From a virus, in IMG/VR virus record IMGVR_UViG_3300008050_000183, positions 1 to 30,986 of that record: a DNA stretch of 30,986 nt, one strand, 5' to 3'. The notes beneath the pieces were generated by a model. The model made no database searches and had not been told where the DNA came from. It was given only the letters and a program-made list of their open reading frames with translations. A program made the translations under genes and the position numbers. Of this stretch, positions 6,235-29,806 are shown in pieces. Each line of letters starts with the position of its first letter. Position 1 is the first letter of the stretch.

Positions 6235-7115
6235 GTTATCAGATAGTAGAAGTTAATGGTGAGGAATTAGAATTTCCTTCGGAGATGAGTGATGAAGATG
6301 TCAGTGCAGTCATACATAAGGAGTTTGGCAGTAAGCCTACTTCTCCTCCCCCTGGGGCCGAGGCAACACCGGAAGTTGCAATGCCAACCCCTCCTCCCGA
6401 TACACCTCCTCAAGAGGTAAGTGAGCCAGCTCCTCCTCCTACGGGTTTAGAACCTACTCCTGTTGTGGGGGAGGTACAGCATCCTGAGATAGAGCAGATA
6501 GCTTCTGATGAGGGTTCTAAAAAGAATTCTGAAGGAAAGCATATCTCTTATCTCGACAGCGTTATAGATAAGAAGACAGGTAAAGGTCATCTCACAGGAG
6601 GGATAGGACACCTCTTATCTGAAACAGAAAGAGATCTATATCCCGAAGGATCTGTGATCCCTCAATCCGTTGTTGATAAGTGGTTCGAGGAAGATGTAAA
6701 AGAGGCTCAACTCGATGTAGAGGTGTTGCTTCCAGATGCTCCAGAAGATGTTAAAAACATATTGACTAACATGGCATTCCAACTAGGAAGAGAGGGTCTC
6801 CGTAACTTTAAGAAGACAATTAAGTTACTAAAAGACGGGGACTACCTTGAAGCCAGTAAGGAGATGTTAGACAGTACGTGGTTTAAGTCCCAGACTCCCA
6901 ATAGGGCTAAGCGATTAGCTAAGAGGATGGAGGCTTTTGGTAAGGAGCATCTAGCTAAAAGAGTCAGATCTTCTGACGAACTAATGAAAGACTTAAAGAA
7001 GATTGATGACCAAAGGAACATGTTAAAACTGTTCTCAGACAATCCTGATTTGACCTTTAACGAGATGAAAGAAGGAGGGGTCTTCGATGAAACTATTGAA
7101 CAGAGGTTATTCTGA
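6231..7115 (+). CDS. Virion-associated lysozyme (T4-lysozyme-like, GH24) with N-terminal anchor and Pro-rich linker
   Basis: Residues 1-32 (VEVNGEELEFPSEMSDEDVS) form a short module often seen at the front of phage ejection or tail proteins. Residues 35-80 are a Pro-rich linker. Residues ~86-235 are a T4-lysozyme-like muramidase: E94 in ASDEG, D109 in YLDS and T122 in LTGGIGH match the Glu/Asp/Thr catalytic set, although the gaps (15 and 13) exceed the usual 9 and 6 because of two short insertions. ILTNMAFQLGR and PNRAKRLAKRM are further family landmarks. There is no signal peptide and the gene sits in the ejection operon, so it probably cuts peptidoglycan at entry rather than at lysis. The domain is clearly paralogous to the endolysin at 10,040-10,636. 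The start uses an ATGA overlap. Confidence 0.82.
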   Translation: MSYQIVEVNGEELEFPSEMSDEDVSAVIHKEFGSKPTSPPPGAEATPEVAMPTPPPDTPPQEVSEPAPPPTGLEPTPVVGEVQHPEIEQIASDEGSKKNSEGKHISYLDSVIDKKTGKGHLTGGIGHLLSETERDLYPEGSVIPQSVVDKWFEEDVKEAQLDVEVLLPDAPEDVKNILTNMAFQLGREGLRNFKKTIKLLKDGDYLEASKEMLDSTWFKSQTPNRAKRLAKRMEAFGKEHLAKRVRSSDELMKDLKKIDDQRNMLKLFSDNPDLTFNEMKEGGVFDETIEQRLF

Positions 7116-8500: not shown

Positions 8501-10032
8501 TGGCAACTACCTTCTTAACTAATTGGCAGTCATTGAGCCCTTCTGTGTCAAATAGTTGGGTAGATTTAGACGTATCATCTCATGTCTCTGCTTCTGCCAC
8601 AGGTATCATCTTGAAGATGATAAACACCAGTGGGTCCTCTAAGAACTTCGGCTTTCGTAATAACGGTTCTACTGATGCCCGTAACCAGCAAATGGCGAAT
8701 GGGCAGTGGGTTAGTTTCAGTGTAGGTATTGATGGCTCCGGATTGTGTGAAATGCTCCTTCAGTGGGGTTGGTCAGGCAGTTGTTATCTGGTTGGATACT
8801 ATGAAGGTGAGGCTACTTTTAATGTAGATGCTGATGACCTCTCTATAGGGACTACGGGTGCCTGGACAGATGTTGATATATCCAGCGAAACAGGAGGAGA
8901 GACAGCTCTAGCAGCTCTTTTAGAGGCTAGGTGGAACGGGTTTGGAACCACTGCAGACTTCGGTCTAAGGATGAACGGTTCTACCGATGACCGCTATGTT
9001 GATAATGTCCAGCTCCATAATGGTGCCATAGTTGGTGTAGACGGTAGCGAGATATTTGAGCATTACATTGGAAACACTAATGTAGATATATTTCTGTTAG
9101 GATGGATGACAGATAATGTCACCATGCATACTGATGCAACTGATCGGTCAACCTCTACAACCGGGTCCTACCAGGCAATAACAAGTCCTGATGCTGATGC
9201 TGACGGTGCCATTTATGAATGTATAGGAGGTACTTCTGGGGATTTAGGTCTCAGAGGATTAAGTCAGACTACCGACTTAACAGATGCTTTTGCTCATAAC
9301 TTCTCTATTGAGAAATGTGATACAGGACAGTGTGAACAGTATATTACAAACACTGCTGTAGACATATTTGAGACAGGCTGGATAGGTACAGCTTCTGGTG
9401 GTACTACCGTAGAGGCTATAACCGATACGTTGGTGATTACGGAGAACAATGCCTCTATAAAGGCTGACACCTCTTTATCTGCCACTACCGAGAGTTTAGC
9501 ACTAACTGCGTATAACGCATCAGTGAATGCTGAAACGTCTGTAGCCGCTACTTCTGATACATTAGTTCTAACGGAGCACAATGCCACTGTCTTTGTAGAC
9601 AGAGAAATATCGGCAACTACTTCTACCTTAGTTCTGACAGAGTATCCTGCATCTATAGCTACAGGAGCCGCTGTTAATGCTACTACTGTAGGGCTTACTC
9701 TTACGGAGCATAATGCTTCTGTTAACGCCTCTACTAATGTAGAAGCCTCTATAGATGCTCTCCTTTTAACAGAGTATGCTGCTTCTGTATCTACAGGGGT
9801 TATAGTCAGTGCAGGGTCAGATAGTTTAGTTTTAACTCCCTACCCTGTCTCTATTGTAGCTAATGTAGAAGTACAAGCTACAGCAGATGCTTTAGTTATT
9901 ACAACCTATCAGGCTACAATAGTAAATGCTGTCCCTGCCTATCTAATAGATGGGGTTAGTAATAAAGTTATATCTTCTGATTATGGATCAATTAAGATGT
10001 ATGGTAATGGAGAGAACTGGTTCACTCTGTAG
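8500..10032 (+). CDS. Fibre/adhesion-type protein: three beta-domain repeats plus eight 22-residue repeats
   Basis: The first ~300 of 510 residues hold three copies of a ~95-residue beta-rich unit. Landmarks are WVDLDVS / WTDVDIS, FGFRNNGSTDAR / FGLRMNGSTDDR, VGIDGSGLCE / VGVDGSEIFE, and CYLVGYY / DIFLLGW; the third copy is the most diverged. From about residue 306 to 481 there are eight tandem 22-residue units of the form A-T-x-D-x-L-x-L-T-E-Y-x-A-S-V (bases 9,415-9,942). The last ~30 residues are unique (LIDGVSNKVISSDYGSIKMY). Repeated beta units after a structural N-terminus and position just before the lysis genes suggest a surface-exposed fibre or adhesion protein. There is no signal peptide or catalytic motif. 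The specific role is inferred. Confidence 0.65.
   Translation: MATTFLTNWQSLSPSVSNSWVDLDVSSHVSASATGIILKMINTSGSSKNFGFRNNGSTDARNQQMANGQWVSFSVGIDGSGLCEMLLQWGWSGSCYLVGYYEGEATFNVDADDLSIGTTGAWTDVDISSETGGETALAALLEARWNGFGTTADFGLRMNGSTDDRYVDNVQLHNGAIVGVDGSEIFEHYIGNTNVDIFLLGWMTDNVTMHTDATDRSTSTTGSYQAITSPDADADGAIYECIGGTSGDLGLRGLSQTTDLTDAFAHNFSIEKCDTGQCEQYITNTAVDIFETGWIGTASGGTTVEAITDTLVITENNASIKADTSLSATTESLALTAYNASVNAETSVAATSDTLVLTEHNATVFVDREISATTSTLVLTEYPASIATGAAVNATTVGLTLTEHNASVNASTNVEASIDALLLTEYAASVSTGVIVSAGSDSLVLTPYPVSIVANVEVQATADALVITTYQATIVNAVPAYLIDGVSNKVISSDYGSIKMYGNGENWFTL
9415..9942. repeat. Eight in-frame tandem 66-nt units in the fibre gene
   Basis: Units begin at 9415, 9481, 9547, 9613, 9679, 9745, 9811 and 9877, each exactly 66 nt with no indels. 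Each encodes a 22-residue unit with the core L-x-L-T-E-Y/H-x-A-S-V. Nucleotide copies have diverged while the period and reading frame are kept, pointing to selection on the protein repeat. Confidence 0.85.
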
Positions 10033-10039
10033 GTGATTT

Positions 10040-10636
10040 ATGAAGAGACTATTCTTCGTTATATTAATGATGGTAAGTTCTGCCGTATTAGGCATATCTA
10101 AAATAGAAAGAGAACTTATCTATGACGAAGGATTGTCATTCCACTCGTACTTAGACAGTCTAGGGAATCTTACAGGAGGAGTAGGACATCTTCTTGTAGG
10201 GGAAGAGGCAGAGGAATACCCTCTAGGAGCCTCTATATCTCCTTCTAAGGCACGTTCTTGGTTTGAGAGTGACCTAGGTAAGGCTGAGGCTATAGTGGCT
10301 GAGATAGCCCCTAATGCCCCTCTAGAGGTGAAAGAGATATTGACTAATATGGCTTTTAACTTAGGAAGGGATAAACTGATGGGGTTTGAGAGAATGCTAT
10401 CACACATTAAAGCAGAGGATTACAACAATGCATGTAAAGAAATGCAAGACAGTCTTTGGGCCACTCAGGTACCTAATCGTGCTGGTCGTCTTATTACAAG
10501 GATGTGCAGCTTTGAATCCAGTAAGCACAGTGACAGATCTTCTGAATCCGAACAAGCCAAGCTTATCTGTCGATACGGAATTCGTTTCTGGGGGGAAAGA
10601 GGAGACTGTAAACACACAAGTAGGTACCACTTCTAA
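10040..10636 (+). CDS. Endolysin: T4-lysozyme-like muramidase with N-terminal export signal
   Basis: Residues 1-20 (MKRLFFVILMMVSSAVLG) are a positively charged hydrophobic segment, either a cleaved Sec signal or a signal-anchor-release segment. The muramidase domain follows directly: E30 (YDEG), D39 (YLDS) and T45 (LTGGVGH) have exactly the Glu-9-Asp-6-Thr spacing of T4 lysozyme. ILTNMAFNLGR and VPNRAGRLITRM are shared with the virion lysozyme at 6,231-7,115. The core ends near residue 158. The last ~40 residues (Ser/Arg/Cys-rich) come from DNA that also encodes the spanin in another frame, so they may be poorly constrained. AGGTGA precedes the ATG. The protein degrades peptidoglycan during lysis. 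Confidence 0.88.
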   Translation: MKRLFFVILMMVSSAVLGISKIERELIYDEGLSFHSYLDSLGNLTGGVGHLLVGEEAEEYPLGASISPSKARSWFESDLGKAEAIVAEIAPNAPLEVKEILTNMAFNLGRDKLMGFERMLSHIKAEDYNNACKEMQDSLWATQVPNRAGRLITRMCSFESSKHSDRSSESEQAKLICRYGIRFWGERGDCKHTSRYHF

Positions 10637-14526: not shown

Positions 14527-15266
14527 AGGTCAGCTCCTCCATCATGTACTTCATTAAGCATAAGACAACCTCTCCAATGACTAGCATTTCCCTGCGGCCC
14601 CATATAGTCCTCATCATGTTGATAGAAGCTACCTGCTGCTATTCCCATTCTACAGGTACCATCAGAGAGGAAATGCTTAGCACTCTTCAATCCCTGGGTA
14701 TGTCCTTGTACGAATGAAAAGCCACAGTTCTTGAGCTGCGTATCCATCATACCACCTAACGGCCCCTTCTTAGCTGAATGAGGGTTAGTGAAGTAGTGAG
14801 AGAAAGCAATACCTCCCATCTTTACAATAGAGAGAAAAGGGTAATCCTCCCAGCCAAACTTAACAAGTTCAGCATCCTCTCCTGACATCATACCAGCCAG
14901 CCTGGGATCGTTCTCAATGAACCGCTTACATCGTACAGCAGGATCGTGGTTACCAGTTAGATACACCATCCTTGGATAGTATCTAGACCTGTGGCCTGTT
15001 ACGAGCTTCCTCTGCTCCTTCCACAATGGCCCTAGGAGCTTCTCCATGCCCTCCTGACCAGCTTCTATGTCATCCCTGTACCTCAGCCCTTCCCACTCCA
15101 TACTCCCCTTCTGAGTGAATACGGAGAGACTGGGCATGTCCCAGTGATCTCCTAGGTGAACAATAACATCAGGCTTCTTCTCTGCTATGTAGTTACCTGC
15201 TGCTTCTAGATGTTCTAAAGGAACTCCTGGCTTTACCTGGGTATCAGGTATTACAAATATCCTCAT
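14484..15266 (-). CDS. Calcineurin-like metallophosphoesterase
   Basis: This 260-residue enzyme carries the ordered metal-binding motifs of the calcineurin-like superfamily: PDTQ (D8, with Gln10 where His is usual), GDHWD (D40), GNHD (N106/H107), SHYF (H157) and GHTQ (H189). The DxQ form is common in phage members. The superfamily includes nucleases (Mre11/SbcD, lambda phosphatase) and phosphatases; the substrate cannot be told from motifs. Surrounding replication and nucleotide genes favour a nucleic-acid or nucleotide substrate. The ATG start overlaps the preceding small gene by 23 nt. Confidence 0.88.
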   Translation of the reverse strand: MRIFVIPDTQVKPGVPLEHLEAAGNYIAEKKPDVIVHLGDHWDMPSLSVFTQKGSMEWEGLRYRDDIEAGQEGMEKLLGPLWKEQRKLVTGHRSRYYPRMVYLTGNHDPAVRCKRFIENDPRLAGMMSGEDAELVKFGWEDYPFLSIVKMGGIAFSHYFTNPHSAKKGPLGGMMDTQLKNCGFSFVQGHTQGLKSAKHFLSDGTCRMGIAAGSFYQHDEDYMGPQGNASHWRGCLMLNEVHDGGADLCELSLKYLMKEWL

Positions 15267-15420
15267 AAGGAACCCCTCTCTCTTTTAAAGTGGATTGTAG
15301 CTTAGAAAAGGCTAGCTTCCTCTCTACTGGCCCTATCAATCTGAAGTATTCAAGAAGAGTAGCTGTACCTCTAGCACTCATCAAACCGTCCTTAGTGTGA
15401 TCTTCTATGATGTTAGCCAT
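15244..15420 (-). CDS. Hypothetical small protein
   Basis: I place the start at ATG 15,420 because AGAGGTG lies just upstream; the open frame extends further to a TTG at 15,513 without such a site. This gives 58 residues: MANIIEDHTKDGLMSARGTA and a C-terminal helical stretch (GPVERKLAFSKLQSTLKERG). It is not recognised, with no motif, signal or membrane segment. It lies between the HNH endonuclease and the metallophosphoesterase, overlapping the latter by 23 nt, so the two are probably coupled. Confidence 0.5.
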   Translation of the reverse strand: MANIIEDHTKDGLMSARGTATLLEYFRLIGPVERKLAFSKLQSTLKERGVPYEDICNT

Positions 15421-15478
15421 CACCACACCTCTATTACGATGACGAGATTCCTCTTCTATAAAGAATAAGGGGTAGCCA

Positions 15479-15880
15479 CTAACTTCGTTCTTCTTTTCTA
15501 CGCGCTGTTGCAATATTTCGTTCCTCTGTACATTTTATTTGATGACAGCTATGGCATAGGGCTTGGAAACCCTCACTCTCTACATAAGCCCTAGTAATCC
15601 AAGAATCGAAGCCTTCAAAGCCTTTAGCAGGATCTATTATAGGGTCTATGTGGTCAGCTACAATGTTTTTTATCCTTCTTTTATTCCCTTCTTTTGGAGG
15701 AAGGGTTGCGGGAACTTCTTTCTTACACGCCTTACAACGATACCAGCCTCTTCTGGTACGTGCTTTACGAATACAATCCTGCTTAGGCCCCCACTTCTGG
15801 AACCCCCCTCTTAGCAGGCTTATGATAAAGGACTTTTTTCTAGCTTCTGTCCAAGTACCTCCGTTATGAGGTTTATTCAA
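15479..15880 (-). CDS. HNH endonuclease with zinc-binding Cys pairs
   Basis: This 133-residue protein has a CxxC pair (YRCKACKK, C49/C52) and a second pair CHSCH (C109/C112) that together likely bind a structural zinc. Between them is VADHIDPIID (D76/H77), the HNH first-strand motif with its general-base His. RAYVESEGFQALCHSCHQIK gives the asparagine/His-type second half. This type appears in many phages next to replication genes, where it may act as a resolvase-like or nicking nuclease, taking the place of T7 endonuclease I. It lacks the extra DNA-recognition domain of typical homing enzymes. It overlaps the exonuclease gene by 8 nt. Confidence 0.82.
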   Translation of the reverse strand: MNKPHNGGTWTEARKKSFIISLLRGGFQKWGPKQDCIRKARTRRGWYRCKACKKEVPATLPPKEGNKRRIKNIVADHIDPIIDPAKGFEGFDSWITRAYVESEGFQALCHSCHQIKCTEERNIATARRKEERS

Positions 15881-20743: not shown

Positions 20744-20910
20744 GTTAATTCCTTCAGTTTTTGATTTTCCCATTCTAGACGAGCGACCTTTGACTCTAAT
20801 TCACTATAATCAGAATAGTTGACAAAATCTCCCTCTTTACATTCGAAAACAGGACTGAATCCATTTTCATGAAAGAAATCATAACGTTGTGGTGTCTTAT
20901 ACGTTAACAT
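20728..20910 (-). CDS. Small coiled-coil protein
   Basis: This is a 60-residue protein starting at ATG 20,910, which overlaps the primase-helicase stop (TGATG) with GAGG about 7 nt upstream. The N-terminal half (MLTYKTPQRYDFFHENGFSP) is unrecognised. The C-terminal half is a short coiled coil (SELESKVARLEWENQKLKEL) of a type seen in many small phage proteins. It overlaps the sigma factor gene by 16 nt. Function is unknown; given its place it may be a partner of the primase-helicase or of the sigma factor, but nothing in the sequence shows this. Confidence 0.55.
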   Translation of the reverse strand: MLTYKTPQRYDFFHENGFSPVFECKEGDFVNYSDYSELESKVARLEWENQKLKELTCKNK

Positions 20911-22562
20911 CACTGTACCTCGTTGAATAAAGTGGTGTTCCTATCCCAATAGAGATGCTGTATACCTGCCTCTCCAAACTCTCTGTCATCTAAAAGAACA
21001 AGGTCTCTTAGATTACGCTCCTCTAGTGAGAGTTCTGGGTCTTTGTTTCCTTCCAACCCAAACATGTAATTACAGCTACGACCCATTGCCCTACTACCGG
21101 CAAACTGGCTAGTGAGAACCTTCCCACCTCTATCGTGATCCGGCCCTCCGTCTGGGTTACGAAGGTGACAGAATATAAAAATAACAATGTTGAGATCAAG
21201 AGCCATAGCTGCCAGCTCTTGAGCAATTTCTTGAAGCTTTGTGTTAGCATCACTTGGATTCATTCCATTAGTTAAGTTAGTAATAGGATCTATGAAGACA
21301 GCTTCTACACCATCCGCTACAGCAGCCCCTATATCGTCTTTAAGCGTATCCCATCCCATGTGTTGGTAAAGGTTAAGCATAGCTAGTTTACCATGTAAAA
21401 TGGCTCCTGCTCGTTCGTATGCCTCATCATCAAACACTACCTTGGGATCGTGAAAGACACGTCCTACAACCTTACCAGCCATCATCTTATAGGTTTTCTT
21501 ATTAGCTTGCTCAGGCTTAGCCATTAAGACCTTCCACCCATGTTCCTTAATTAAATGTGCTCCAAGAGTATCGACCACCTCAGATTTACCCATCTTCTGT
21601 GCTGCACCAATGTAGATTGTCTCGCCCTTACGGATACCTCTTGTTAACTGGGTGAGGTACGTCCACGGCCAAGAGACACCAAAAGCTGCTTGCTCCTTAG
21701 CTTCCTGATGGATGTCATGCCCCCAAACAATCTTTGTATTCTTGGACTCTTTGGCGTTCCACTTAACTGCTTTGACAAGTGCCTTGGATCTCCCCTCGAT
21801 GAGGCAGGCGTTTGCATCCTTTTCGGGCAGTATTGCCGATTTAGCCTTCGGAAAGACCTTAGCAACCACATCTGCCGCCCCTTCCCTACCCGGTTTGTCC
21901 TGGTCGAACGCCAATACCACGCTCGAAAAGTGTTTGTTGATAGCGGCTTTGGCCTTGAGTAGGTCTTTAGTCGCAGCTCCAACCCCGTGAGGTATAGAGC
22001 AGACTGCCGGGATGAACTCTTCATAATCGGTTCCTTTGTTATCTTTAGTGAGGACTTGCCACAAGGCCATGGCATCTTCCTCTCCTTCTGTTATGTAAAG
22101 GGTTTTAGTGCCGGACCTAATAGCCTGTTCCCATCCAAACAGATCAACATCCCTCTGATCTCCTACAGACCAAGCCCCCTTCTTCCCCAATATCTTGCAC
22201 TTGTAAGCTACTACTTCCCCTTCCTTGGTATAGGGACGATAGAGAGTTTCAGGAGTTTCTCCGTCTGTCTCACTCACTCCTACTAATACATTGAAATAGG
22301 AGAGGGTAGATTCATTGAGCATTCGAGCATGTATTGTAGCTGTACCACATTCTTGTATGTCAGCCAGTTCTTCAGCTATTTGCTCAGGAGTCTTCCTAAT
22401 GGGCTGTGGGGGCTTATAGTCTACCCCCTTGTCTTGGTATGGGTTGGGGACAAACGTCCCACAGGCGTAACAATAGCCGTTGTAATGGCCTTCTTCTTCA
22501 AAGACCTGTAAACCATCCCTTGATCCACATCCGTGGGGGAGCTTCTCAATACATGTTCCCAT
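20910..22562 (-). CDS. DNA primase-helicase (T7 gp4-like)
   Basis: This 550-residue bifunctional protein makes RNA primers and unwinds DNA at the fork. The N-terminal zinc module has LPHGCGSRDGLQVF and GYCYACG (H10/C12 and C31/C34). The TOPRIM primase domain has YITEGEEDAMAL (E159) and LAFDQDKPGREG (D220/D222). The RecA-like helicase domain has a variant Walker A, GAAQKMGKS (319-327), a Walker B-like VEAVFIDPITNL, and downstream FIFCHLRNP and QFAGSRAMG, typical of the DnaB/gp4 group. The tail ends with WDRNTTLF. It is translated upstream of the sigma factor, RNA ligase and polymerase genes in the same operon. Confidence 0.93.
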   Translation of the reverse strand: MGTCIEKLPHGCGSRDGLQVFEEEGHYNGYCYACGTFVPNPYQDKGVDYKPPQPIRKTPEQIAEELADIQECGTATIHARMLNESTLSYFNVLVGVSETDGETPETLYRPYTKEGEVVAYKCKILGKKGAWSVGDQRDVDLFGWEQAIRSGTKTLYITEGEEDAMALWQVLTKDNKGTDYEEFIPAVCSIPHGVGAATKDLLKAKAAINKHFSSVVLAFDQDKPGREGAADVVAKVFPKAKSAILPEKDANACLIEGRSKALVKAVKWNAKESKNTKIVWGHDIHQEAKEQAAFGVSWPWTYLTQLTRGIRKGETIYIGAAQKMGKSEVVDTLGAHLIKEHGWKVLMAKPEQANKKTYKMMAGKVVGRVFHDPKVVFDDEAYERAGAILHGKLAMLNLYQHMGWDTLKDDIGAAVADGVEAVFIDPITNLTNGMNPSDANTKLQEIAQELAAMALDLNIVIFIFCHLRNPDGGPDHDRGGKVLTSQFAGSRAMGRSCNYMFGLEGNKDPELSLEERNLRDLVLLDDREFGEAGIQHLYWDRNTTLFNEVQ

Positions 22563-23125: not shown

Positions 23126-23941
23126 TTAAAAAGGGACAACATTCTCTTTCTCCTTCCAATTACCTGCATAAGCAATAGTTTGTGCCTGCCTAATACCTTC
23201 TAAGACACATAACTCCCAGTCAGTGTTTGCAGGAAAGTATGATAGTATTTCTCCAAATATCTTCTTAGCAAACTCCTCTCCTCCTTCCCAAGACATTGTA
23301 CTAACAATATCCCTAGGATCTGTGAACATCTTGCTCATGTCTTTCAATCGCAATAACATCCCTGTCCAACCTAGTAACACTTCCTTATCTACTGTAGAAC
23401 GCATAGCTCTGAACTCAAGGCTCCCATACTCACAGATAGCCTTACAATTAATAGAGGCATATCGGATAGCATCTGTATGTAAGATACGTAAGTCGGATTC
23501 TATAGCAGCAGCCTCTACAAGTTCTAGAAGATATTCAGCATCCTTAGCACGTAGACAAAAGAGATTGCCTACTCTTGCTTCTCCACAGTAATCTACTAAT
23601 GTATCCTCAAATACTAGGTAGAGACAGATGAAGTTATAGAGCTGTACTTCAGTTAGATCTCGTATGTTGATATGGATATGTACACCCGCTCTCCCTGTAT
23701 CAAATACCTGAGAGGAATCAAACTTACTAATAAGCCTATCTAACATCATCTCTACTTTAGCCCTAGGAATAGGCTTACGGAGTACATACTCAGCAGACTC
23801 TCCTCGTAAGGAGCCATCATGCTCCCTTCTCCAGCCCATAGGAGTATTCTGAGGAAGGTTTTCTCCTTCTACCTCTATCTCAATACCTACTTCCCTAGTG
23901 TCTAATGTATCCCCATTAAATAGCTTGTCCGCGATCAACAT
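23126..23941 (-). CDS. Amidoligase (COOH-NH2 ligase, glutamine-synthetase-like fold)
   Basis: This 271-residue protein shows the signature of the amidoligase family (Amidoligase_2) described among glutamine-synthetase-like COOH-NH2 ligases: REVGIEIEVEGE (E21/E23), WRREHDGSLR, AEYVLRKP (E51), GVHIHIN (H88/H90) and the C-terminal RYASINCKAI with EYGSLEFRAMRST (E176/R178). These acidic, His and Arg residues bind metal-ATP and the carboxylate. The family joins a carboxylate to an amine with ATP, making amide or isopeptide bonds. The substrate is unknown. It is the last main gene of the amide-ligase cassette. Its ATG start overlaps the preceding gene by 26 nt. Confidence 0.85.
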   Translation of the reverse strand: MLIADKLFNGDTLDTREVGIEIEVEGENLPQNTPMGWRREHDGSLRGESAEYVLRKPIPRAKVEMMLDRLISKFDSSQVFDTGRAGVHIHINIRDLTEVQLYNFICLYLVFEDTLVDYCGEARVGNLFCLRAKDAEYLLELVEAAAIESDLRILHTDAIRYASINCKAICEYGSLEFRAMRSTVDKEVLLGWTGMLLRLKDMSKMFTDPRDIVSTMSWEGGEEFAKKIFGEILSYFPANTDWELCVLEGIRQAQTIAYAGNWKEKENVVPF

Positions 23942-24491
23942 TTACAATCTCCTCTAAACTTTCAGTCAGGTATTCATAATCAGGAACAAGCCTAAGAATC
24001 CCGTTCTCTATAATTCCTACATTCTTCTCCTTATAGAGAAGAGAGGGACTAACAATGCCTACCTGTACTGCCCAGTGTCTGTGAAAGGCTACAGAGGTAC
24101 GACAGCTATTGAGAAGCTCTAAGGCCGTATCTAAAGAAGGATATCGGCCTAATACACAGTTGCCTAGCGCTTTACTACGTAGGTCTTTCTCGTAGATACG
24201 TCCTTGTACACTGTCCCTGCTTAACCCTTGCTTCCAACGCCTACGAGGAATCCTTCTAACGTACCTAGCCCCGTCTCTTTTATTTACATAGCCCAGAGGT
24301 ACAGGTTCAATATTAAGACCTTTAAGGGTACGTATATCCTCTATATAACTCCTCTTCCCATTCATAGGAAAGAATAGATTAGTAGACCAATCTCCCTCAA
24401 CCCCTTCTATCCATACAGGGGATTCTCCTATACGGACAAGGGAGTTAGCTAGGGCTTGTCTAGCGTAGTGTGGTTCGTTAAAGAACATCAT
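23916..24491 (-). CDS. Unrecognised protein between the two amidoligases
   Basis: This 191-residue protein is co-encoded with both amidoligases, sharing 4 nt (ATGA) with the one upstream and 26 nt with the one downstream. It is not recognised. Landmarks: an N-terminal helix (NEPHYARQALANSLVRIGES), PVPLGYVNKRDGARYVRRIP followed by RRRWKQGLS, then ALGNCVLGRYPSLDTALELL and HRHWAVQVGI. The basic patch with paired Arg/Trp and the conserved-looking Gly-Tyr-Val-Asn segment suggest a nucleic-acid, nucleotide or anionic-substrate binding role. There is no signal peptide or membrane span. Its fixed place inside the cassette suggests a cofactor or carrier function, which is inference. Confidence 0.6.
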   Translation of the reverse strand: MMFFNEPHYARQALANSLVRIGESPVWIEGVEGDWSTNLFFPMNGKRSYIEDIRTLKGLNIEPVPLGYVNKRDGARYVRRIPRRRWKQGLSRDSVQGRIYEKDLRSKALGNCVLGRYPSLDTALELLNSCRTSVAFHRHWAVQVGIVSPSLLYKEKNVGIIENGILRLVPDYEYLTESLEEIVNVDRGQAI

Positions 24492-25435
24492 TCGAAGAAT
24501 ACCCCTCTAACTTCTACTAACCCGGGTTCTGGAATAATTCTAGCAGGCTCCTTCCATAGCTCTTGTACATAAGCATCGGGCTCTATGAAACCACCTCCTG
24601 TTTGCTTCTTCTCTTCCTTTTCTTCTTCCTTATTTACAATAGGAGGCATAGATATAAAATCATAATGTTCAATATGGTTTTTAGCGGAATAGCAGCTATT
24701 TTTACGGAGGAGCGCCCTAACTATATCACTGTCTATCCTGTCTTGCGCCCGTTTGCCTTCTACCAAATCTTCTACAGCCTTTTGAGCCTGCTGAAATACC
24801 CAGCGCTGTAGCTCAGGATGCTTCAACCATGCATTAGATAGCACCCTATATTCCATACCGTAAGGCTTAGGACGGAAAGAGCCAGCTTGTCCATACATTT
24901 TTCTTCGCTCATTATCGTTATCGAACATGAGAGAAGGGATTCCTAGGTATATATCTAGCTGTTTGGCTACTTCACAGCACTCATCAAAGTGGAAAGGACA
25001 GCCTTCAGGTTCATTCTCTGTCCAGCCAATATGAATATGTCCTGAAGCTGTACGGAAAGGGCTATCCTCATCAGGTTTCTCATTAACTTCTCCTGTATAG
25101 GCATTATAGTCAGGGTCACAGCCCATCTCTTTAGCTTCAGAAGGCTGGGCCTTGATATAGTCAGCTCCAAATTGAGCAGTAGGTTCTACAAAGAACTCAT
25201 ACTCGGGCACCATATCTTTTAACTGAGACATCACCGTAGCAATGTTATTAACAAACTCATCCTCATTATCTGTAGGATCAGTGTTAAACTCTAAAGCCAT
25301 ACCGTCTACCTGTACAGCTCCTTTATCAACTTTGAATGGATTCTTCTTATCGCCTTTGATTAGCCCGAATGCAGATTGTAGTTTGCCACCTTTTGTGACG
25401 AAAAGTTCAGGATCAGTTCCGATTAAATAAGCCAT
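24488..25435 (-). CDS. phiEco32-like COOH-NH2 ligase (type 2 amidoligase)
   Basis: This 315-residue protein matches the phage phiEco32-like COOH-NH2 ligase family: GTDPELFV (D8, E10), VDGMALEFN (E49), ASGHIHIGW (H133/H135), then FDNDNERRKMYGQAGSFRPK and YGMEYRVLSNAWL (E195, R197). These are the metal-ATP and carboxylate-binding positions of the glutamine-synthetase-like ligases, in a subfamily distinct from the gene at 23,126-23,941. A Lys/Glu-rich low-complexity loop (KEEEKEEKKQTGGG) lies near the C-terminus. TAGAGGA precedes the ATG. It probably forms an amide bond using ammonia or an amine delivered with help of the upstream amidotransferase; the substrate is unknown. Confidence 0.88.
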   Translation of the reverse strand: MAYLIGTDPELFVTKGGKLQSAFGLIKGDKKNPFKVDKGAVQVDGMALEFNTDPTDNEDEFVNNIATVMSQLKDMVPEYEFFVEPTAQFGADYIKAQPSEAKEMGCDPDYNAYTGEVNEKPDEDSPFRTASGHIHIGWTENEPEGCPFHFDECCEVAKQLDIYLGIPSLMFDNDNERRKMYGQAGSFRPKPYGMEYRVLSNAWLKHPELQRWVFQQAQKAVEDLVEGKRAQDRIDSDIVRALLRKNSCYSAKNHIEHYDFISMPPIVNKEEEKEEKKQTGGGFIEPDAYVQELWKEPARIIPEPGLVEVRGVFFE

Positions 25436-25447
25436 GATAGTATTCCT

Positions 25448-26761
25448 CTAATGCATAAAGTTTGGGTAGTATTGTTCGTTGTCTATGTATTCTTGTACAG
25501 CTTGTTCGTCTGTACAACTGCTACAGAAGGCATCTCCGTCCTCTGTATAGGTAGCCCCTTCCTGGAAAGGGATAGCCATTCTACACCAGCTACAAGGCCC
25601 TCCGAACAGATGTTCAAAGGCTGTCTCTGTCAACATACACATAGAACCATTGATATAGAATGCCTTAGCTATGTCTTGCGCTTCAGCTTCCTCTTTCGTT
25701 AGATATTCTTCTTTCTGTTTTACAGAATTAGCTTGAACAATTACCCTATAAGTAACATCGTTCTTACGATAGAAAGAATTCACTTTCCCTGTGAATAGGC
25801 CAGTCTTCAGTAACATAGCATTATGTATAGTTGAACCCTCTCCTCCATGTACAATAACTTCTATATTGTGACCATCCGAAGACCAGCCCTTAATTCCTGT
25901 TCCCTTTGAGTAAGAGTCCACGGAGAACGTTATTTCTGAGCCACTCCGAAGCTCCTCCTCCTTTTTTACAGGAGGTGCTCCTTCTACCTTCTTATTCCCT
26001 AAGAGAGGAGTGACATTATTCTTACGAGCAGGAGGGATGTACACGTAAGGAGTATGTTCTACCTTATATTGTAAGCCCCATTCAGGATACTTGTTAGCTA
26101 TATTGGCATGAATAGGCACTTCAAATACATATTCCTTATGTAGTTCGGTCTCTACTAATTCACTGTGCTCTATATCGTTACGATGAAGAATAGAAAGAAG
26201 CATCCACTCCTCACTAGCCCAGAACATTGTCTTCTTGTCTTTAGTAAAACAGTAGTGGAACGGCCTTTCCTTATTACGTAAGAAGTGAAGGGTTTCACTC
26301 TCAGTATTCCACCATACTAGAGCAGCAGCCCCCTCTACCTTATTCCAGGTATCCTTAACTCCTAGCTTATTAATAGAATGTAAGATGTTCTCACTATCTA
26401 CAACATAATCCTTATAGTCAGGAAGGAGGCTCTGTCTACGTAATGTTCCGTTATGTACTCCTATAATATTCCCTAGTTCAAAGGGATGAGCATTAACCTT
26501 ATTAACTCCTCCTTGTGTAGCCCATCGGTTATGCCCAATTAAGACATTATTCTGACATAAGAATACGTCCTTAAAAGGCTTCCAATGAAATATGTCATGA
26601 GGAAGCATAGCATGTTTAACAATGTCTGTAGCCCCATTAGTACATACCTGAGCTACCCCTGTGCTGTCTGGCCCTCGTAAGGAGTCAACAACAAGTAGTT
26701 CTTTAAAAGCTTTTTCATATTTGCCAGTAGTATGCCCGGCAACACCCACTAATCCACACAA
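25448..26761 (-). CDS. Class II glutamine amidotransferase (Ntn-type) with C-terminal Cys4 motif
   Basis: The catalytic nucleophile in this family is Cys2, exposed after Met removal. A TTG at 26,761 with GAGGATAAGGAA upstream gives Met-Cys-Gly-Leu-Val-Gly, so I place the start there (437 residues) although the frame extends to 26,800. Family motifs follow: RGPDSTG, GHNRWATQG, NAHPF, VHNGTL and DSENILHSI. The enzyme releases ammonia from glutamine for a partner ligase. No asparagine-synthetase or sugar-isomerase domain follows. Instead there is a ~200-residue unassigned region and a C-terminal zinc-ribbon-like set (CSWC at 390-393, CSSC at 413-416). It is followed by two amidoligases in the operon, its likely acceptors. 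Confidence 0.88.
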   Translation of the reverse strand: MCGLVGVAGHTTGKYEKAFKELLVVDSLRGPDSTGVAQVCTNGATDIVKHAMLPHDIFHWKPFKDVFLCQNNVLIGHNRWATQGGVNKVNAHPFELGNIIGVHNGTLRRQSLLPDYKDYVVDSENILHSINKLGVKDTWNKVEGAAALVWWNTESETLHFLRNKERPFHYCFTKDKKTMFWASEEWMLLSILHRNDIEHSELVETELHKEYVFEVPIHANIANKYPEWGLQYKVEHTPYVYIPPARKNNVTPLLGNKKVEGAPPVKKEEELRSGSEITFSVDSYSKGTGIKGWSSDGHNIEVIVHGGEGSTIHNAMLLKTGLFTGKVNSFYRKNDVTYRVIVQANSVKQKEEYLTKEEAEAQDIAKAFYINGSMCMLTETAFEHLFGGPCSWCRMAIPFQEGATYTEDGDAFCSSCTDEQAVQEYIDNEQYYPNFMH

Positions 26762-26975
26762 TTCCTTATCCTCTTCTACGTGAACGGTTGACATTCTCAA
26801 TGTAATTAACGTACTTAATCTCTAATTTATCTCTGCTGTGTTTGTCTTTCTGTAACCTTTGTACTTCTAAATAGAGGTCGCCTACAAAATCGACTGTAAG
26901 TTGAGATTCTTCACTCTCTCTCTTAATCCTTCTAGCTACCGCATCGAAAGCATCACCAACACCTACTAATCCACA
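26739..26975. repeat. Direct repeat, two 20-nt copies (26,739-26,758 and 26,956-26,975)
   Basis: On the minus strand TGTGGATTAGTGGGTGTTGC (start of the amidotransferase gene) and TGTGGATTAGTAGGTGTTGG (start of the 70-codon ORF) match at 18 of 20 positions. AAGGAA lies shortly upstream of both. The copies lie 217 nt apart and code for the same CGLVGV residues. Confidence 0.75.
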
Positions 26976-26978
26976 GAT
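26766..26978 (-). CDS. Overlooked 70-codon ORF with no canonical start, N-terminus duplicated from the amidotransferase
   Basis: The gap between the ATP-grasp and amidotransferase genes is filled by one open frame that ends 4 nt before the amidotransferase TTG. It has no ATG, GTG or TTG; the first plausible starts are ATT 26,981 or ATC 26,978, the latter 6 nt after AAGGA. Reading from ATC gives (M)CGLVGVGDAFDAVARRIK, then a charged helical stretch (DLYLEVQRLQKDKHSRDKLE) and a basic end. The first six residues equal the catalytic start of the amidotransferase. It may be a real small protein with an IF3-type start, or a remnant of a partial duplication. The helical body looks protein-like, but translation is unproven. 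Confidence 0.4.
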   Translation of the reverse strand: MCGLVGVGDAFDAVARRIKRESEESQLTVDFVGDLYLEVQRLQKDKHSRDKLEIKYVNYIENVNRSRRRG

Positions 26979-26996
26979 AATAGTTCCTTAGCCAGC

Positions 26997-27965
26997 TTAT
27001 AGCTGATCTTTCAATAAGTTATTTTCATAAAGATATTTAGCAATTTGTATAGGATCATTTTGGTAAAACTTCTCTATTATCTCTCCAGCAGCAATTACTA
27101 CATCCGGATTAACTATACCAGGGAGATCATCTTCTACCAACTGAGCACGATCAGATACAGCAGGGTGGATGAACTTACGATAGCCTCCTTTCTCCTCGAT
27201 AAGAGGTATGCTAGCTTTACCATGCTCTACTATGTAGTCAAAGCACTTAGCCATACATTCCTGTCGATAGGGTGATGTCAAGCTAGGAGCTGAATTGATT
27301 TCTAAGACGTATGGCTTACCCTCAGCATCAAGCATTACATCTACACCACCAAAGTCTAAGCCTGATAACATAAAGGCTTCTATGGCTGTTTTACAGGCTC
27401 TCAGAGGCCAGTCATCAAAGCGTACATTATCAAATCGTCCTCCCTTAGCTACGTTCCAAGCTATAGCATCTGGGTTGTCTGGTGTCTTCTGAGCTACACA
27501 GGCTACTCGTCCTTGTACTACGAAGATACGGTATTCACTTACTTTCTTGATGTATTCAGACCCGTATCCGTCCTGACAAAGGACAAGAGCTTTTCCATAT
27601 TCATCCCAGTCTTCAACAAGGTAGGTATGTTTCCCTTGTGCATGTTTCTTAGGACGAATAACAGCAGGGAAAGTAGCAACTGCTAAATTCCTATAGCCTT
27701 CTCCTAAGTCGAAGGTATAAGGACATAGTTCGTGTTCATTCAGAAGCATCCTGAAAGCTTTCTTATCATTAACCCTATGAATAGCCTCAGCAGTGTTTAA
27801 AACGTTGTTTGTAGGGACGTTAGCTGTACACCCCCAGCGTATGTATAGGTCGTCTTCAGGAAGCCTCTTATCGCTTCTAATCCAGCCTATGCCTGTCTTA
27901 CTGAAGGCAGCTATTCCTTTACAGCTAGACATACCTAGCTTACGTCGTCTAATTATAGTAGTCAT
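26997..27965 (-). CDS. ATP-grasp carboxylate-amine ligase
   Basis: This 322-residue protein is of the RimK/glutathione-synthetase-like ATP-grasp type. Landmarks: RVNDKKAFRMLL (K69), FPAVIRPKKHAQGKHTYLV (lysine and glycine loop over ATP), SEYRIFVVQGRV, NVAKGGRF, then GLDFGGVDVMLDAEGKPYVL and EINSAPSLTS with the Mg-ATP ligands D209, E222 and N224. The family joins a carboxylate, via acyl-phosphate, to an amine, for example in peptide or poly-glutamate tailing. The C-terminal ~70 residues (after PLIEEKGGYRKF) are unassigned. It lies in the same operon as the amidotransferase and the two amidoligases. The substrate is unknown. Confidence 0.88.
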   Translation of the reverse strand: MTTIIRRRKLGMSSCKGIAAFSKTGIGWIRSDKRLPEDDLYIRWGCTANVPTNNVLNTAEAIHRVNDKKAFRMLLNEHELCPYTFDLGEGYRNLAVATFPAVIRPKKHAQGKHTYLVEDWDEYGKALVLCQDGYGSEYIKKVSEYRIFVVQGRVACVAQKTPDNPDAIAWNVAKGGRFDNVRFDDWPLRACKTAIEAFMLSGLDFGGVDVMLDAEGKPYVLEINSAPSLTSPYRQECMAKCFDYIVEHGKASIPLIEEKGGYRKFIHPAVSDRAQLVEDDLPGIVNPDVVIAAGEIIEKFYQNDPIQIAKYLYENNLLKDQL

Positions 27966-27975
27966 ATTTCTTTTC

Positions 27976-28233
27976 CTATAAAAACCTATGGGATATTTTC
28001 CCAGAAAGATCTATTAATATATCTCTATCGCTAAACTTAGAAGAATAGGAAGGGCCTAGCTTGACTTCTTTATTCTTATGTATCCTAGAATAGACTGTTA
28101 GAGATTTACTATCCCCTTCTTCCGTAATAACAACATGCATCCAAGGGGGCAGAGGTTTCTTCTCCATACGGTAACCTCGCTCTCTTGGGTACTCTACCCG
28201 TACATAAAGATAGTCGTAGGTTGTATCTCTCAT
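27976..28233 (-). CDS. Hypothetical small protein in the amide-ligase cassette
   Basis: This 85-residue protein starts with an ATGA overlap on the glutamine-hydrolase gene. It is beta-rich: YDYLYVRVEYPRERGYRMEK, PLPPWMHVVITEEGDSKSLT, VYSRIHKNKEVKLG, DRDILIDLSGKIS. There is no signal, membrane span or known motif. Its position between the class I glutamine hydrolase and the ATP-grasp ligase suggests a subunit or substrate-carrier role, but a stand-alone function cannot be excluded. Confidence 0.55.
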   Translation of the reverse strand: MRDTTYDYLYVRVEYPRERGYRMEKKPLPPWMHVVITEEGDSKSLTVYSRIHKNKEVKLGPSYSSKFSDRDILIDLSGKISHRFL

Positions 28234-28856
28234 GTCAACCCCAACAGTCTTTCTAACAATTCAAAATAGTATTCCTGGCATTCATGGTTCCTATCCATCA
28301 TCTCAGGATGAGGCTGGAAGCATAAATCCTGAGCTTCCTCATAGAACACCACCTCTACATCTCTATCGTCACCAGTATATCTAACAACCTCCCCATCCTC
28401 TCCTACATTTTCCTTGTAGGTGGCTTCATCAGCCCAACATATCACTTGCCCTTCTTCAGCAGGTCTCATCATCTGGTGGTGAGTAGAAGAGACAGCTATC
28501 TCTCGCTTAGTCCAGTCCTCATACATGATGTGAGTACCATACTTAGCATGACCATCTACATCCTGGTACATCTTACCGCCATTGACTACATTCAAGTACT
28601 GAGCACCACGACAGATGCCGATACAAGGCTTCTGAAGCATGATAGCTTTCTTGTACAATAGCTCGCTATGTAGGTCAGCTTGAGGGTCATGTCCTGTACG
28701 AGGGTGGGACTGTTCTCCATACAACTGAGGAGTGACATCAGCACCCCCTATGAACTGTATAACATCAGCCTCTTCAATAGTTTCTACTACTGTATGCCCT
28801 CTATCTGAGAACATCCTCTCATACTCTTTAGCAAATCTTTCTACAAATACCTTCAT
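28230..28856 (-). CDS. Class I glutamine amidotransferase-like / peptidase C26 (gamma-glutamyl hydrolase type)
   Basis: I choose ATG 28,856 (208 residues), which overlaps the upstream stop (ATGA) with AAGGA nearby; the frame extends eight codons further. Motifs: FIGGADVTPQLYGE, IGICRGAQYLNVVNGG with nucleophile C82, and FQPHPEM with H183 and E185, completing the Cys-His-Glu triad. GGADVxPxxYGE is the hallmark of the peptidase C26 branch (PuuD, gamma-glutamyl hydrolases), which cleaves gamma-glutamyl amide bonds, rather than of amidotransferase subunits. In this cassette it could remove a gamma-glutamyl protecting group or trim a product. No synthetase domain is fused. Confidence 0.88.
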   Translation of the reverse strand: MKVFVERFAKEYERMFSDRGHTVVETIEEADVIQFIGGADVTPQLYGEQSHPRTGHDPQADLHSELLYKKAIMLQKPCIGICRGAQYLNVVNGGKMYQDVDGHAKYGTHIMYEDWTKREIAVSSTHHQMMRPAEEGQVICWADEATYKENVGEDGEVVRYTGDDRDVEVVFYEEAQDLCFQPHPEMMDRNHECQEYYFELLERLLGLT

Positions 28857-29719
28857 AGTCCTTGCTCCGATGAATAACATTTAGCCCAGTTAGCCATAAC
28901 GTCTAAGCCTTGTTCAAACTTAAACTTATGGTTCTTGTTAATACCTAGTAGTCCCTTACGTCCACGTAAAGACTCTCCAAAACTCTTAGCAGCCTCCTTC
29001 AAGACCTCTTCTAAGGGAAGGCTGTCTCTTATCTTCCAAGTGTCAAAGACTCCTAGAGCACTGCGTCTGTATTTTATAGGATCGAATAAGACAGCATTAG
29101 TGAGGTCGCTTTTAACAAATGCTTTTAATCCTTCTACAGTCATATCTTCAAGAGAGATACAGGAGTGGTGATCTCTACCTGCACCCCAAGACAGTTCCTC
29201 ATTGTACAGACAAGCATGATGACATAAGACAAAAGCTAAGCTCTCTCTTACGCCTCTCTTACGTAAACCTCCCCATACTTGCATCCACCTACTACCCCCC
29301 CTATCTCGCTCCCACCCATACCTGGTAGCTGTTAAAGCTCCTAATAGGAGGTTAGAAGGTACATCTGTTCTACATATAATACCTAGGTTGATAGCTGTAC
29401 GAGGGTTCTTAGTTATAAACACATCTGCATAAGGGCTTTCATTTAACAACCAACGATAGAAGGGGATTGTGTATCCCTTCTTTAGCCTATCCCTCTTAAT
29501 CTTATGGTTATCAACCAGTGTTACAATTGCCTTGGCCTTTTGGTATCTTTTAATCGCAGCATGGCAAACAACATCTACCTCATACTCATACTCATCTCTA
29601 GGAAATACCCCTCCAAAGGTACACAAAGAATACTCTGCATCGTGCTTTATCTTCTCATTCTGTAGTCTCTTCAATTCCCTTCTAAGAGCCTTAGCTCTCT
29701 TAATTGTCCTCTTATTCAT
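28853..29719 (-). CDS. Unrecognised 288-residue protein heading the amide-ligase cassette
   Basis: First gene after the terminator at 29,772-29,806, with AGAGG 7 nt before the ATG, so it probably opens the cassette's transcription unit. It is not recognised. It starts with a very basic helix (NKRTIKRAKALRRELKRLQN). The middle has TFGGVFPRDEYEYEVDVVCH and YADVFITKNPRTAINLGIIC. A notable stretch is GVRESLAFVLCHHACLYNEE followed by WGAGRDHHSC, where clustered Cys/His could bind metal or act in catalysis. The C-terminus is helical. It overlaps the C26 hydrolase by 4 nt. A substrate-recognition or additional catalytic role is inferred only from linkage. Confidence 0.62.
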   Translation of the reverse strand: MNKRTIKRAKALRRELKRLQNEKIKHDAEYSLCTFGGVFPRDEYEYEVDVVCHAAIKRYQKAKAIVTLVDNHKIKRDRLKKGYTIPFYRWLLNESPYADVFITKNPRTAINLGIICRTDVPSNLLLGALTATRYGWERDRGGSRWMQVWGGLRKRGVRESLAFVLCHHACLYNEELSWGAGRDHHSCISLEDMTVEGLKAFVKSDLTNAVLFDPIKYRRSALGVFDTWKIRDSLPLEEVLKEAAKSFGESLRGRKGLLGINKNHKFKFEQGLDVMANWAKCYSSEQGL

Positions 29720-29771: not shown

Positions 29772-29806
29772 ACCCCTCAGAAGGCAATCTAGAGCCTCCT
29801 AGGGGT
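29772..29806 (-). terminator. Strong rho-independent terminator upstream of the amide-ligase cassette
   Basis: On the minus strand ACCCCTAGGAGGC pairs with GCCTTCT-G-AGGGGT around an 8-nt loop: 13 pairs with one G-U and one bulged G. TTTTCT follows at 29,772-29,767. There is no T-run on the other side. It should end or attenuate transcripts from the small genes to the right, giving the cassette its own transcription start or partial read-through. Confidence 0.85.

Follow-up and report, generated by a model that had tools for sequence, protein, structure and literature searches.

The cassette and its enzymes

The window, that is, the whole stretch of DNA analysed here, comprises the 30,986 bp of an IMG/VR record (IMGVR_UViG_3300008050_000183) from an uncultured phage, probably a fragment, and carries a cassette of amide-bond enzymes. 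This cassette probably assembles a glutamate-linked molecule at an early stage of infection and trims it afterwards. It consists of eight intact open reading frames (ORFs) at 23126-29719, which all lie on the minus strand; their order is P288 (288 residues), Peptidase C26, DUF7300 (85 residues), ATP-grasp ligase, class II glutamine amidotransferase, COOH-NH2 ligase, P191 (191 residues) and Amidoligase_2 (Table 1). An ORF check confirmed their place as given in an earlier note on this DNA. Neighbouring genes overlapped by 28, 4, 4 and 26 bp or were separated by 10 and 12 bp, and the single larger gap, of 235 bp, lay between the ATP-grasp and amidotransferase genes; this spacing would fit a single transcript. 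The strong terminator that the note had seen ahead of this transcription unit was supported by folding, since the whole 71-nt stretch gave -23.7 kcal/mol (z -3.9) and 0/200 shuffles were as good; the hairpin was not listed by a simple terminator scan. The left part of the window holds virion genes on the plus strand. In its right part the minus strand encodes replication and early proteins, among them ribonucleotide reductase, DNA polymerase, a sigma-factor-like protein and primase/helicase. Downstream of Amidoligase_2, on the same strand, an 87-nt gap is followed by two small genes and then by the primase/helicase (20910-22562), which places the cassette beside replication genes.

Table 1. 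Features in and around the cassette (positions in the window).
Feature	Position	Strand	Basis or remark
Intrinsic-terminator-like hairpin, then UUUUCUACUU (U-rich run)	29772..29806	-	just upstream of cassette; folding
P288, uncharacterised, adjoins C26	28853..29719	-	PHROGs, profile comparison, conservation
Peptidase C26 (predicted PuuD-like gamma-glutamyl hydrolase)	28230..28880	-	Pfam, PHROGs, residues
DUF7300 small protein, hitchhiker	27976..28233	-	Pfam, survey, relatives in Yuavirus-type phages
ATP-grasp ligase (RimK/R2K-like), separate clade	26997..27965	-	Pfam, residues, tree
70-codon ORF beginning at ATC behind AAGGA	26766..26978	-	repeats amidotransferase N-terminus (xCGLVGVG...)
19-bp direct repeat, copy 1, 95% identical to copy 2	26957..26975	.	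repeat search
19-bp direct repeat, copy 2, start of amidotransferase gene	26740..26758	.	repeat search
Class II glutamine amidotransferase, TTG start at 26761	25448..26761	-	Pfam, N-terminal Cys, residues
COOH-NH2_lig, glutamine-synthetase-fold amidoligase	24488..25435	-	Pfam, PHROGs, residues
P191 (phrog_11055), core protein between two amidoligases	23916..24491	-	PHROGs, profiles, predicted structure
Amidoligase_2, second glutamine-synthetase-fold amidoligase	23126..23941	-	Pfam, PHROGs, residues

The enzyme identities proposed in the note, namely two amidoligases, an ATP-grasp ligase, a class II amidotransferase and a C26 peptidase, were upheld by Pfam, where all five matches exceeded the curated cut-offs (Amidoligase_2, E 4e-6; COOH-NH2_lig, 5e-11; GATase_6, 3e-16; RimK-type ATP-grasp, 1e-8; Peptidase_C26, 4e-21), and PHROGs gave concurring assignments. 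Loss of catalytic residues would, by the note's own criterion, have refuted its reading, and alignment with relatives from 20 phage records showed that the residues were retained in all five enzymes. Conserved were D8, E10, H133, H135, E195 and R197 in the COOH-NH2 ligase; E21, E23, H88, H90, E176 and R178 in Amidoligase_2; K68, E144, R146, K160, D209, E222 and N224 in the ATP-grasp ligase; Cys90, His191 and Glu193 together with the HHQ motif in C26; and the N-terminal Cys, R79, N104, G105 and D122 in the amidotransferase. The nearest solved structures to the C26 protein included PuuD (6vtv). The amidotransferase was described in the note as lacking a synthetase domain, and indeed Pfam found only GATase domains in 25448-26800. 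Its C-terminus carries a CxxC-x(n)-CxxC motif, and such a motif was present in the C-terminal part of 93/102 homologues. Two other pathways were considered and dropped: asparagine-synthetase-type amidation, as there is no synthetase domain, and simple glutathione synthesis by GshA/GshB, as the GSH-S_ATP match scored 21.7 bits, below the curated cut-off of 23.

Conservation of the cassette among phages

The COOH-NH2 ligase was found by tblastn in 317 phage records, and at least 565 IMG/VR stretches encode it. IMG/VR scans with the ligase and C26 alignments succeeded; that of P191 showed too much variation to serve as a scan pattern. In 57 full-flank IMG/VR loci with the ligase, Amidoligase_2, P191, the amidotransferase and ATP-grasp were each present in 57/57, C26 in 54 and P288 in 52, and loci anchored on C26 (n=56) gave the same picture; these 57-locus counts are not independent because the loci are mostly related to one another. 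Of the 98 loci with both amidoligases, 90 had P191 between them. Single-protein scans of viral_contigs yielded one relative of the COOH-NH2 ligase and none of P288. The enzyme set also occurred together in Paundecimvirus, Citrovirus, Salinovirus, Melvirus, Bruynoghevirus, Grimontviridae, Gordonclarkvirinae, Steigviridae (crAss-like) and in rhizobial and cyanobacterial phages, so the neighbourhood comparison suggested in the note demonstrated co-occurrence across several phage families. The core thus comprises the five enzymes and P191, with P288 part of the core in Zobellviridae-type cassettes. Since the cassette is kept in phages of Pseudomonas, Escherichia, Vibrio, Rhizobium, Bacteroidetes and cyanobacteria, it must do something useful. 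The genes most closely related to those of the cassette, arranged in the same order, were found in the Zobellviridae PA11, CVT22, T5S1, GP100 and CW02, and the phage of the window would be Zobellviridae-like, judging from cassette genes and gene order.

The cassette lies beside primase/helicase, which was found in 44 of the 57 full-flank loci, within the early/replication module. Such a placement would be expected if the enzymes made an amide-bearing base or nucleotide for DNA modification, but the matches of the scanned window proteins included no transglycosylase, hydroxymethylase or glycosyltransferase, and the replication genes of the phages that carry the cassette differ widely. With no supporting enzyme among the window proteins scanned, modification of DNA or nucleotides was considered very improbable and dropped.

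In rhizobial phages (L006:12408-13544 and L020:14543-15649) the ATP-grasp gene is followed by a second class II amidotransferase, a divergent one, and then by a GGCT-like protein.

A predicted gamma-glutamyl-cleaving enzyme in every cassette genome searched

GGCT and C26 have unrelated folds, and known members of both break gamma-glutamyl amide bonds. In the PuuA-PuuD and BtrJ-BtrG pathways an ATP-dependent ligase puts glutamate on an amine and a C26 (PuuD) or GGCT-fold (BtrG) enzyme removes it; PuuD takes the gamma-glutamyl group off gamma-glutamyl-GABA (gamma-aminobutyric acid), and BtrG takes one off in butirosin synthesis. Whole records of 48 cassette genomes, 47 of them distinct (PA11 was included twice), were searched for GGCT (PF06094) and C26 (PF07722), and all 47 distinct genomes contained one enzyme or both. 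The eight genomes without C26 (two IMG/VR contigs, HZ2201, 7-11, EP335, BUCT695, RIO-1 and phi14:2) all had GGCT, compared to 8 of the 39 distinct genomes having C26 (Fisher p 4e-5). Counts of tblastn records by host genus agreed with this pattern: 121 ligase records vs 105 GGCT and 16 C26 in Pseudomonas, 22 vs 7 GGCT and 15 C26 in Vibrio, and 93 ligase vs 93 GGCT in Escherichia. GGCT gave no profile match in the window, which is probably a fragment. Leptolyngbya phage Lbo-JY46 has three C26-like proteins (L022:7010-7573, 8794-9426 and 14736-15497) around its cassette, and it has GGCT too.

The earlier note had suggested that a gamma-glutamyl-type conjugate is built and then unmasked. This idea gained support because all 47 genomes keep a cleaving enzyme, with GGCT in those lacking C26, and the constant presence of C26 or GGCT is the best available evidence for it, as a pattern and not as biochemical proof. 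The association was not significant after correction for relatedness. Several points weigh against the idea. GGCT and C26 occurred together in 8/47 genomes, hence they are not strictly exclusive. The ligase tree offered 2 independent pairs on supported branches (5 on the best tree). None of them contradicted the association; their number is too small for significance after tree correction. C26 lies within the wider GATase class I fold, and its hydrolysis of gamma-glutamyl amides is predicted from motif and family. No solved relative was detectable by sequence profile for either amidoligase family.

Intact active sites, constant gene company and a cleaving enzyme that is never absent despite the change of fold were observed, and we tentatively favour synthesis of a cytoplasmic gamma-glutamyl conjugate by the cassette at an early stage of infection. 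In the related phage HP1, expression of the cassette genes begins as soon as the cell is infected (PMC7082346). In the scheme we propose, the COOH-NH2 ligase would activate a glutamate carboxyl with ATP and join it to an amine, and Amidoligase_2 and the ATP-grasp ligase would attach further units or link them together. The ammonia that the class II amidotransferase frees from glutamine would serve to amidate a carboxyl; as this enzyme lacks a synthetase domain, the acceptor must be one of the ligases. The gamma-glutamyl group would be stripped by C26 or, in other phages, by GGCT. P191, located between both ligases, is probably their partner or scaffold, and P288, beside C26, probably acts as a partner in cleavage. 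The survey thus gives a short list of proteins to co-express and a defined bond to look for.

Exchange of the ATP-grasp ligase

In a tree of 104 cassette ATP-grasp proteins, the window enzyme grouped with six others, 51-67% identical, with 100/100 support. The seven members of this clade are about 30% identical to the common type, and all seven of their cassettes lack the usual ATP-grasp gene after Amidoligase_2. A third type, located before the amidotransferase or further upstream, accompanied the common one in eight loci. Two ATP-grasp genes of separate types, one before the amidotransferase and one after Amidoligase_2, were seen in L034, L040, L041, L049, L050, L052, L056 and L075. Because long branches meet in the tree, replacement and fast divergence after a move are not separable; under either history the ATP-grasp slot is kept.

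The window ATP-grasp protein matched the RimK, R2K_3 and TTL models in Pfam. These families include known or predicted protein modifiers (for R2K, see PMC7824862), and the cassette could accordingly serve in peptide tailing of a host or phage protein, where the ATP-grasp ligase and amidoligases add residues, C26 or GGCT trims them, and P191 or P288 acts as target or adaptor. However, ATP-grasp domains of this kind also produce small peptides, the ATP-grasp type varies between cassettes and no acceptor motif was evident, which makes protein tailing rather improbable.

Comparison with known systems

The gene set was rated as more novel in the earlier note than it proved to be. The cassette itself was already described between 2009 and 2013 as a phage 'peptidoglycan modification' module, and under that name the gene set appears in PMC5498523, PMC6256558 and PMC11945000; Iyer 2009 and Hardies 2013 are cited for the cassette and its wall-modification role in the first two. 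PMC6209634 also lists the cassette enzymes for TC6, a phage that shares its genus with PA11. New here are the survey results, chiefly the exchangeable cleaving step and the AUU/AUC starts described below, and the window cassette with its unusual ATP-grasp ligase.

The published hypothesis is that the ligases alter the peptide stem of cytoplasmic wall precursors, as a superinfection block or in preparation for lysis. In the parts of these papers available, the role is stated for RIO-1-like phages, phiEco32, 7-11, PA11, LUZ24, PaP3 and CW02 (PMC5498523), for phiM6 (PMC6256558) and for a LUZ24-like phage (PMC11945000), and the early expression in HP1 would suit a barrier against a second phage. 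The same portions of the three papers report no experiment on it, and no biochemistry of the cassette was found in them or in the available text of PMC6209634 and PMC7082346. None of the eight cassette proteins (0/8) matched a Mur-ligase or MurT-type domain in Pfam. Furthermore, GGCT requires an N-terminal gamma-glutamyl residue, which is absent from the wall stem. We therefore regard modification of peptidoglycan precursors as unlikely and retain the cytoplasmic gamma-glutamyl conjugate as the working explanation.

The window was compared with a reference set of known cassettes (RIO-1/HP1, phiEco32, 7-11, PA11, tf, LUZ24, PaP3 and CW02). Like these, it has two glutamine-synthetase-fold amidoligases, an ATP-grasp ligase, a class II amidotransferase, a gamma-glutamyl-cleaving enzyme and small uncharacterised proteins beside replication genes. 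Unlike these, its ATP-grasp ligase belongs to a separate clade and is encoded upstream of the amidotransferase, DUF7300 is inserted, and the start of the amidotransferase gene is duplicated and displaced. The cleaving enzyme is C26 in the window and GGCT in RIO-1/HP1. Paundecimvirus (Pseudomonas phages PA11, O4 and TC6) has the same order, P288-C26-amidotransferase-COOH-NH2 ligase-P191-Amidoligase_2, likewise beside primase/helicase and a sigma factor, with a COOH-NH2 ligase 52-57% identical to that of the window. In contrast, the ATP-grasp gene of PA11 follows Amidoligase_2, its product being about 28% identical to the window enzyme, and DUF7300 is absent. With the PuuA-PuuD pathway the window shares a PuuD-like C26 hydrolase. 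It differs from PuuA-PuuD and BtrJ-BtrG in having three ligases and an amidotransferase instead of one ligase and in lacking a carrier protein and a PuuB/PuuC-like enzyme; neither Pfam nor PHROGs found an oxidase or aldehyde dehydrogenase (PuuB, PuuC) among the cassette proteins.

Start codons of the amidotransferase gene

The start codon of the amidotransferase gene can be located exactly because the mature enzyme must begin with Cys. In the window the gene most likely starts at TTG 26761, directly ahead of the catalytic Cys codon, and not at 26800. Among 109 distinct amidotransferase genes, the codon before Cys was ATG in 71, ATT in 18, TTG in 9, ATC in 7, GTG in 2 and another codon in two. 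No in-frame ATG, GTG or TTG lay between the previous stop and Cys in 19 of the 25 ATT/ATC genes, whereas the same test in control genes for Amidoligase_2, COOH-NH2 ligase and C26 gave 0/352 without a usual start. Nearly all 25 genes have a Shine-Dalgarno-like sequence, mostly with 8-nt spacing. On a quick tree the start-codon state changed at least 19 times, with 11 changes forced by supported branches. Conservation of the N-terminus and the lack of alternatives thus suggest that AUU and AUC are used as starts, and processing of a longer precursor would be excluded solely for the 19 genes with no upstream start. These weak starts may be selected, or merely tolerated because their position is locked by Cys. 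A literature search on AUU start codons in phages found no paper on this amidotransferase gene. ATT/ATC-type starts were seen in L013, L026, L036, L043, L045, L050, L053, L060, L064, L065, L071, L086, L090, L098, L099, L122, L125, L126, L131 and phage O4 (L183:4905).

These starts have consequences for annotation. In Pseudomonas phage O4 the annotated start comes 37 codons after the ATC, and in Klebsiella phage Klyazma 17 codons after it, so that both annotated genes begin after the catalytic residue.

In the window, AAGGAACTATT-ATC-TGTGGATTAGTAGGTGTTG lies 217 bp upstream of the TTG start, and its last 19 bases are repeated there; the 235-bp gap contains an ORF of 70 codons and a 19-bp stretch that directly repeats the amidotransferase start. 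The same leader forms the start region in L064 and L072. In the simplest reading of the sequence, an insertion of about 217 bp probably displaced the ancestral ATC start. A more specific version of the gamma-glutamyl proposal, possible but doubtful, is that the cassette makes an undescribed gamma-glutamyl-linked molecule or modification, that unmasking by C26 or GGCT is obligatory, and that recurrent AUU/AUC starts keep the amidotransferase low and sensitive to initiation factors.

P191, P288 and DUF7300

Three proteins had been called unrecognised in the earlier note. The 85-residue protein was recognisable as DUF7300 (Pfam E 1e-19), and the other two do remain uncharacterised although they are found in PHROGs: P191 belongs to phrog_11055, and P288 matched phrog_34254 and phrog_27195, hence neither is an orphan. 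Pfam gave nothing convincing for members of either family and PDB sequence profiles gave nothing.

The P191 profile extended to the protein in the same position in LUZ24-like, phiEco32-like and 7-11-like phages (E 3e-6). Conserved positions of P191 are G67, R80, R84, G89 and G159. In 7-11, BUCT695 and EP335 the P288 profile matched a tandem pair encoded upstream of the ligase (E 5e-6), and the pairs in Salmonella phage 7-11 and Aeromonas phage BUCT695 would thus be distant relatives of P288. As negative controls, P191 against the P288-like set and the reverse gave E-values of 0.26 and 0.73. In P288, R133 is invariant and C52, E137 and H185 are nearly so, a set that would be compatible with an active site.

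The predicted structure of P191 (predicted local distance difference test, pLDDT, 93.7) showed a small N-terminal beta-barrel that weakly resembles Sm/SH3-like folds (best Z 4.6, under the level for claiming kinship). That of P288 (pLDDT 83.4) had no PDB match among the structures compared, which does not prove a new fold, and its clear BFVD matches were solely phage proteins, the named ones being from cassette phages.

DUF7300 had been counted as part of the system, but it was absent from every other surveyed cassette locus. Its close relatives, 75% identical, are in Yuavirus-type phages, so it appears to be a recent hitchhiker. The same 75% identity is a sign of recent exchange between unrelated phages.

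Elsewhere in the window, two lysozyme-type proteins encoded on the plus strand (6231-7115 and 10040-10636) matched the same PHROGs, namely endolysin and virion-lysozyme families.

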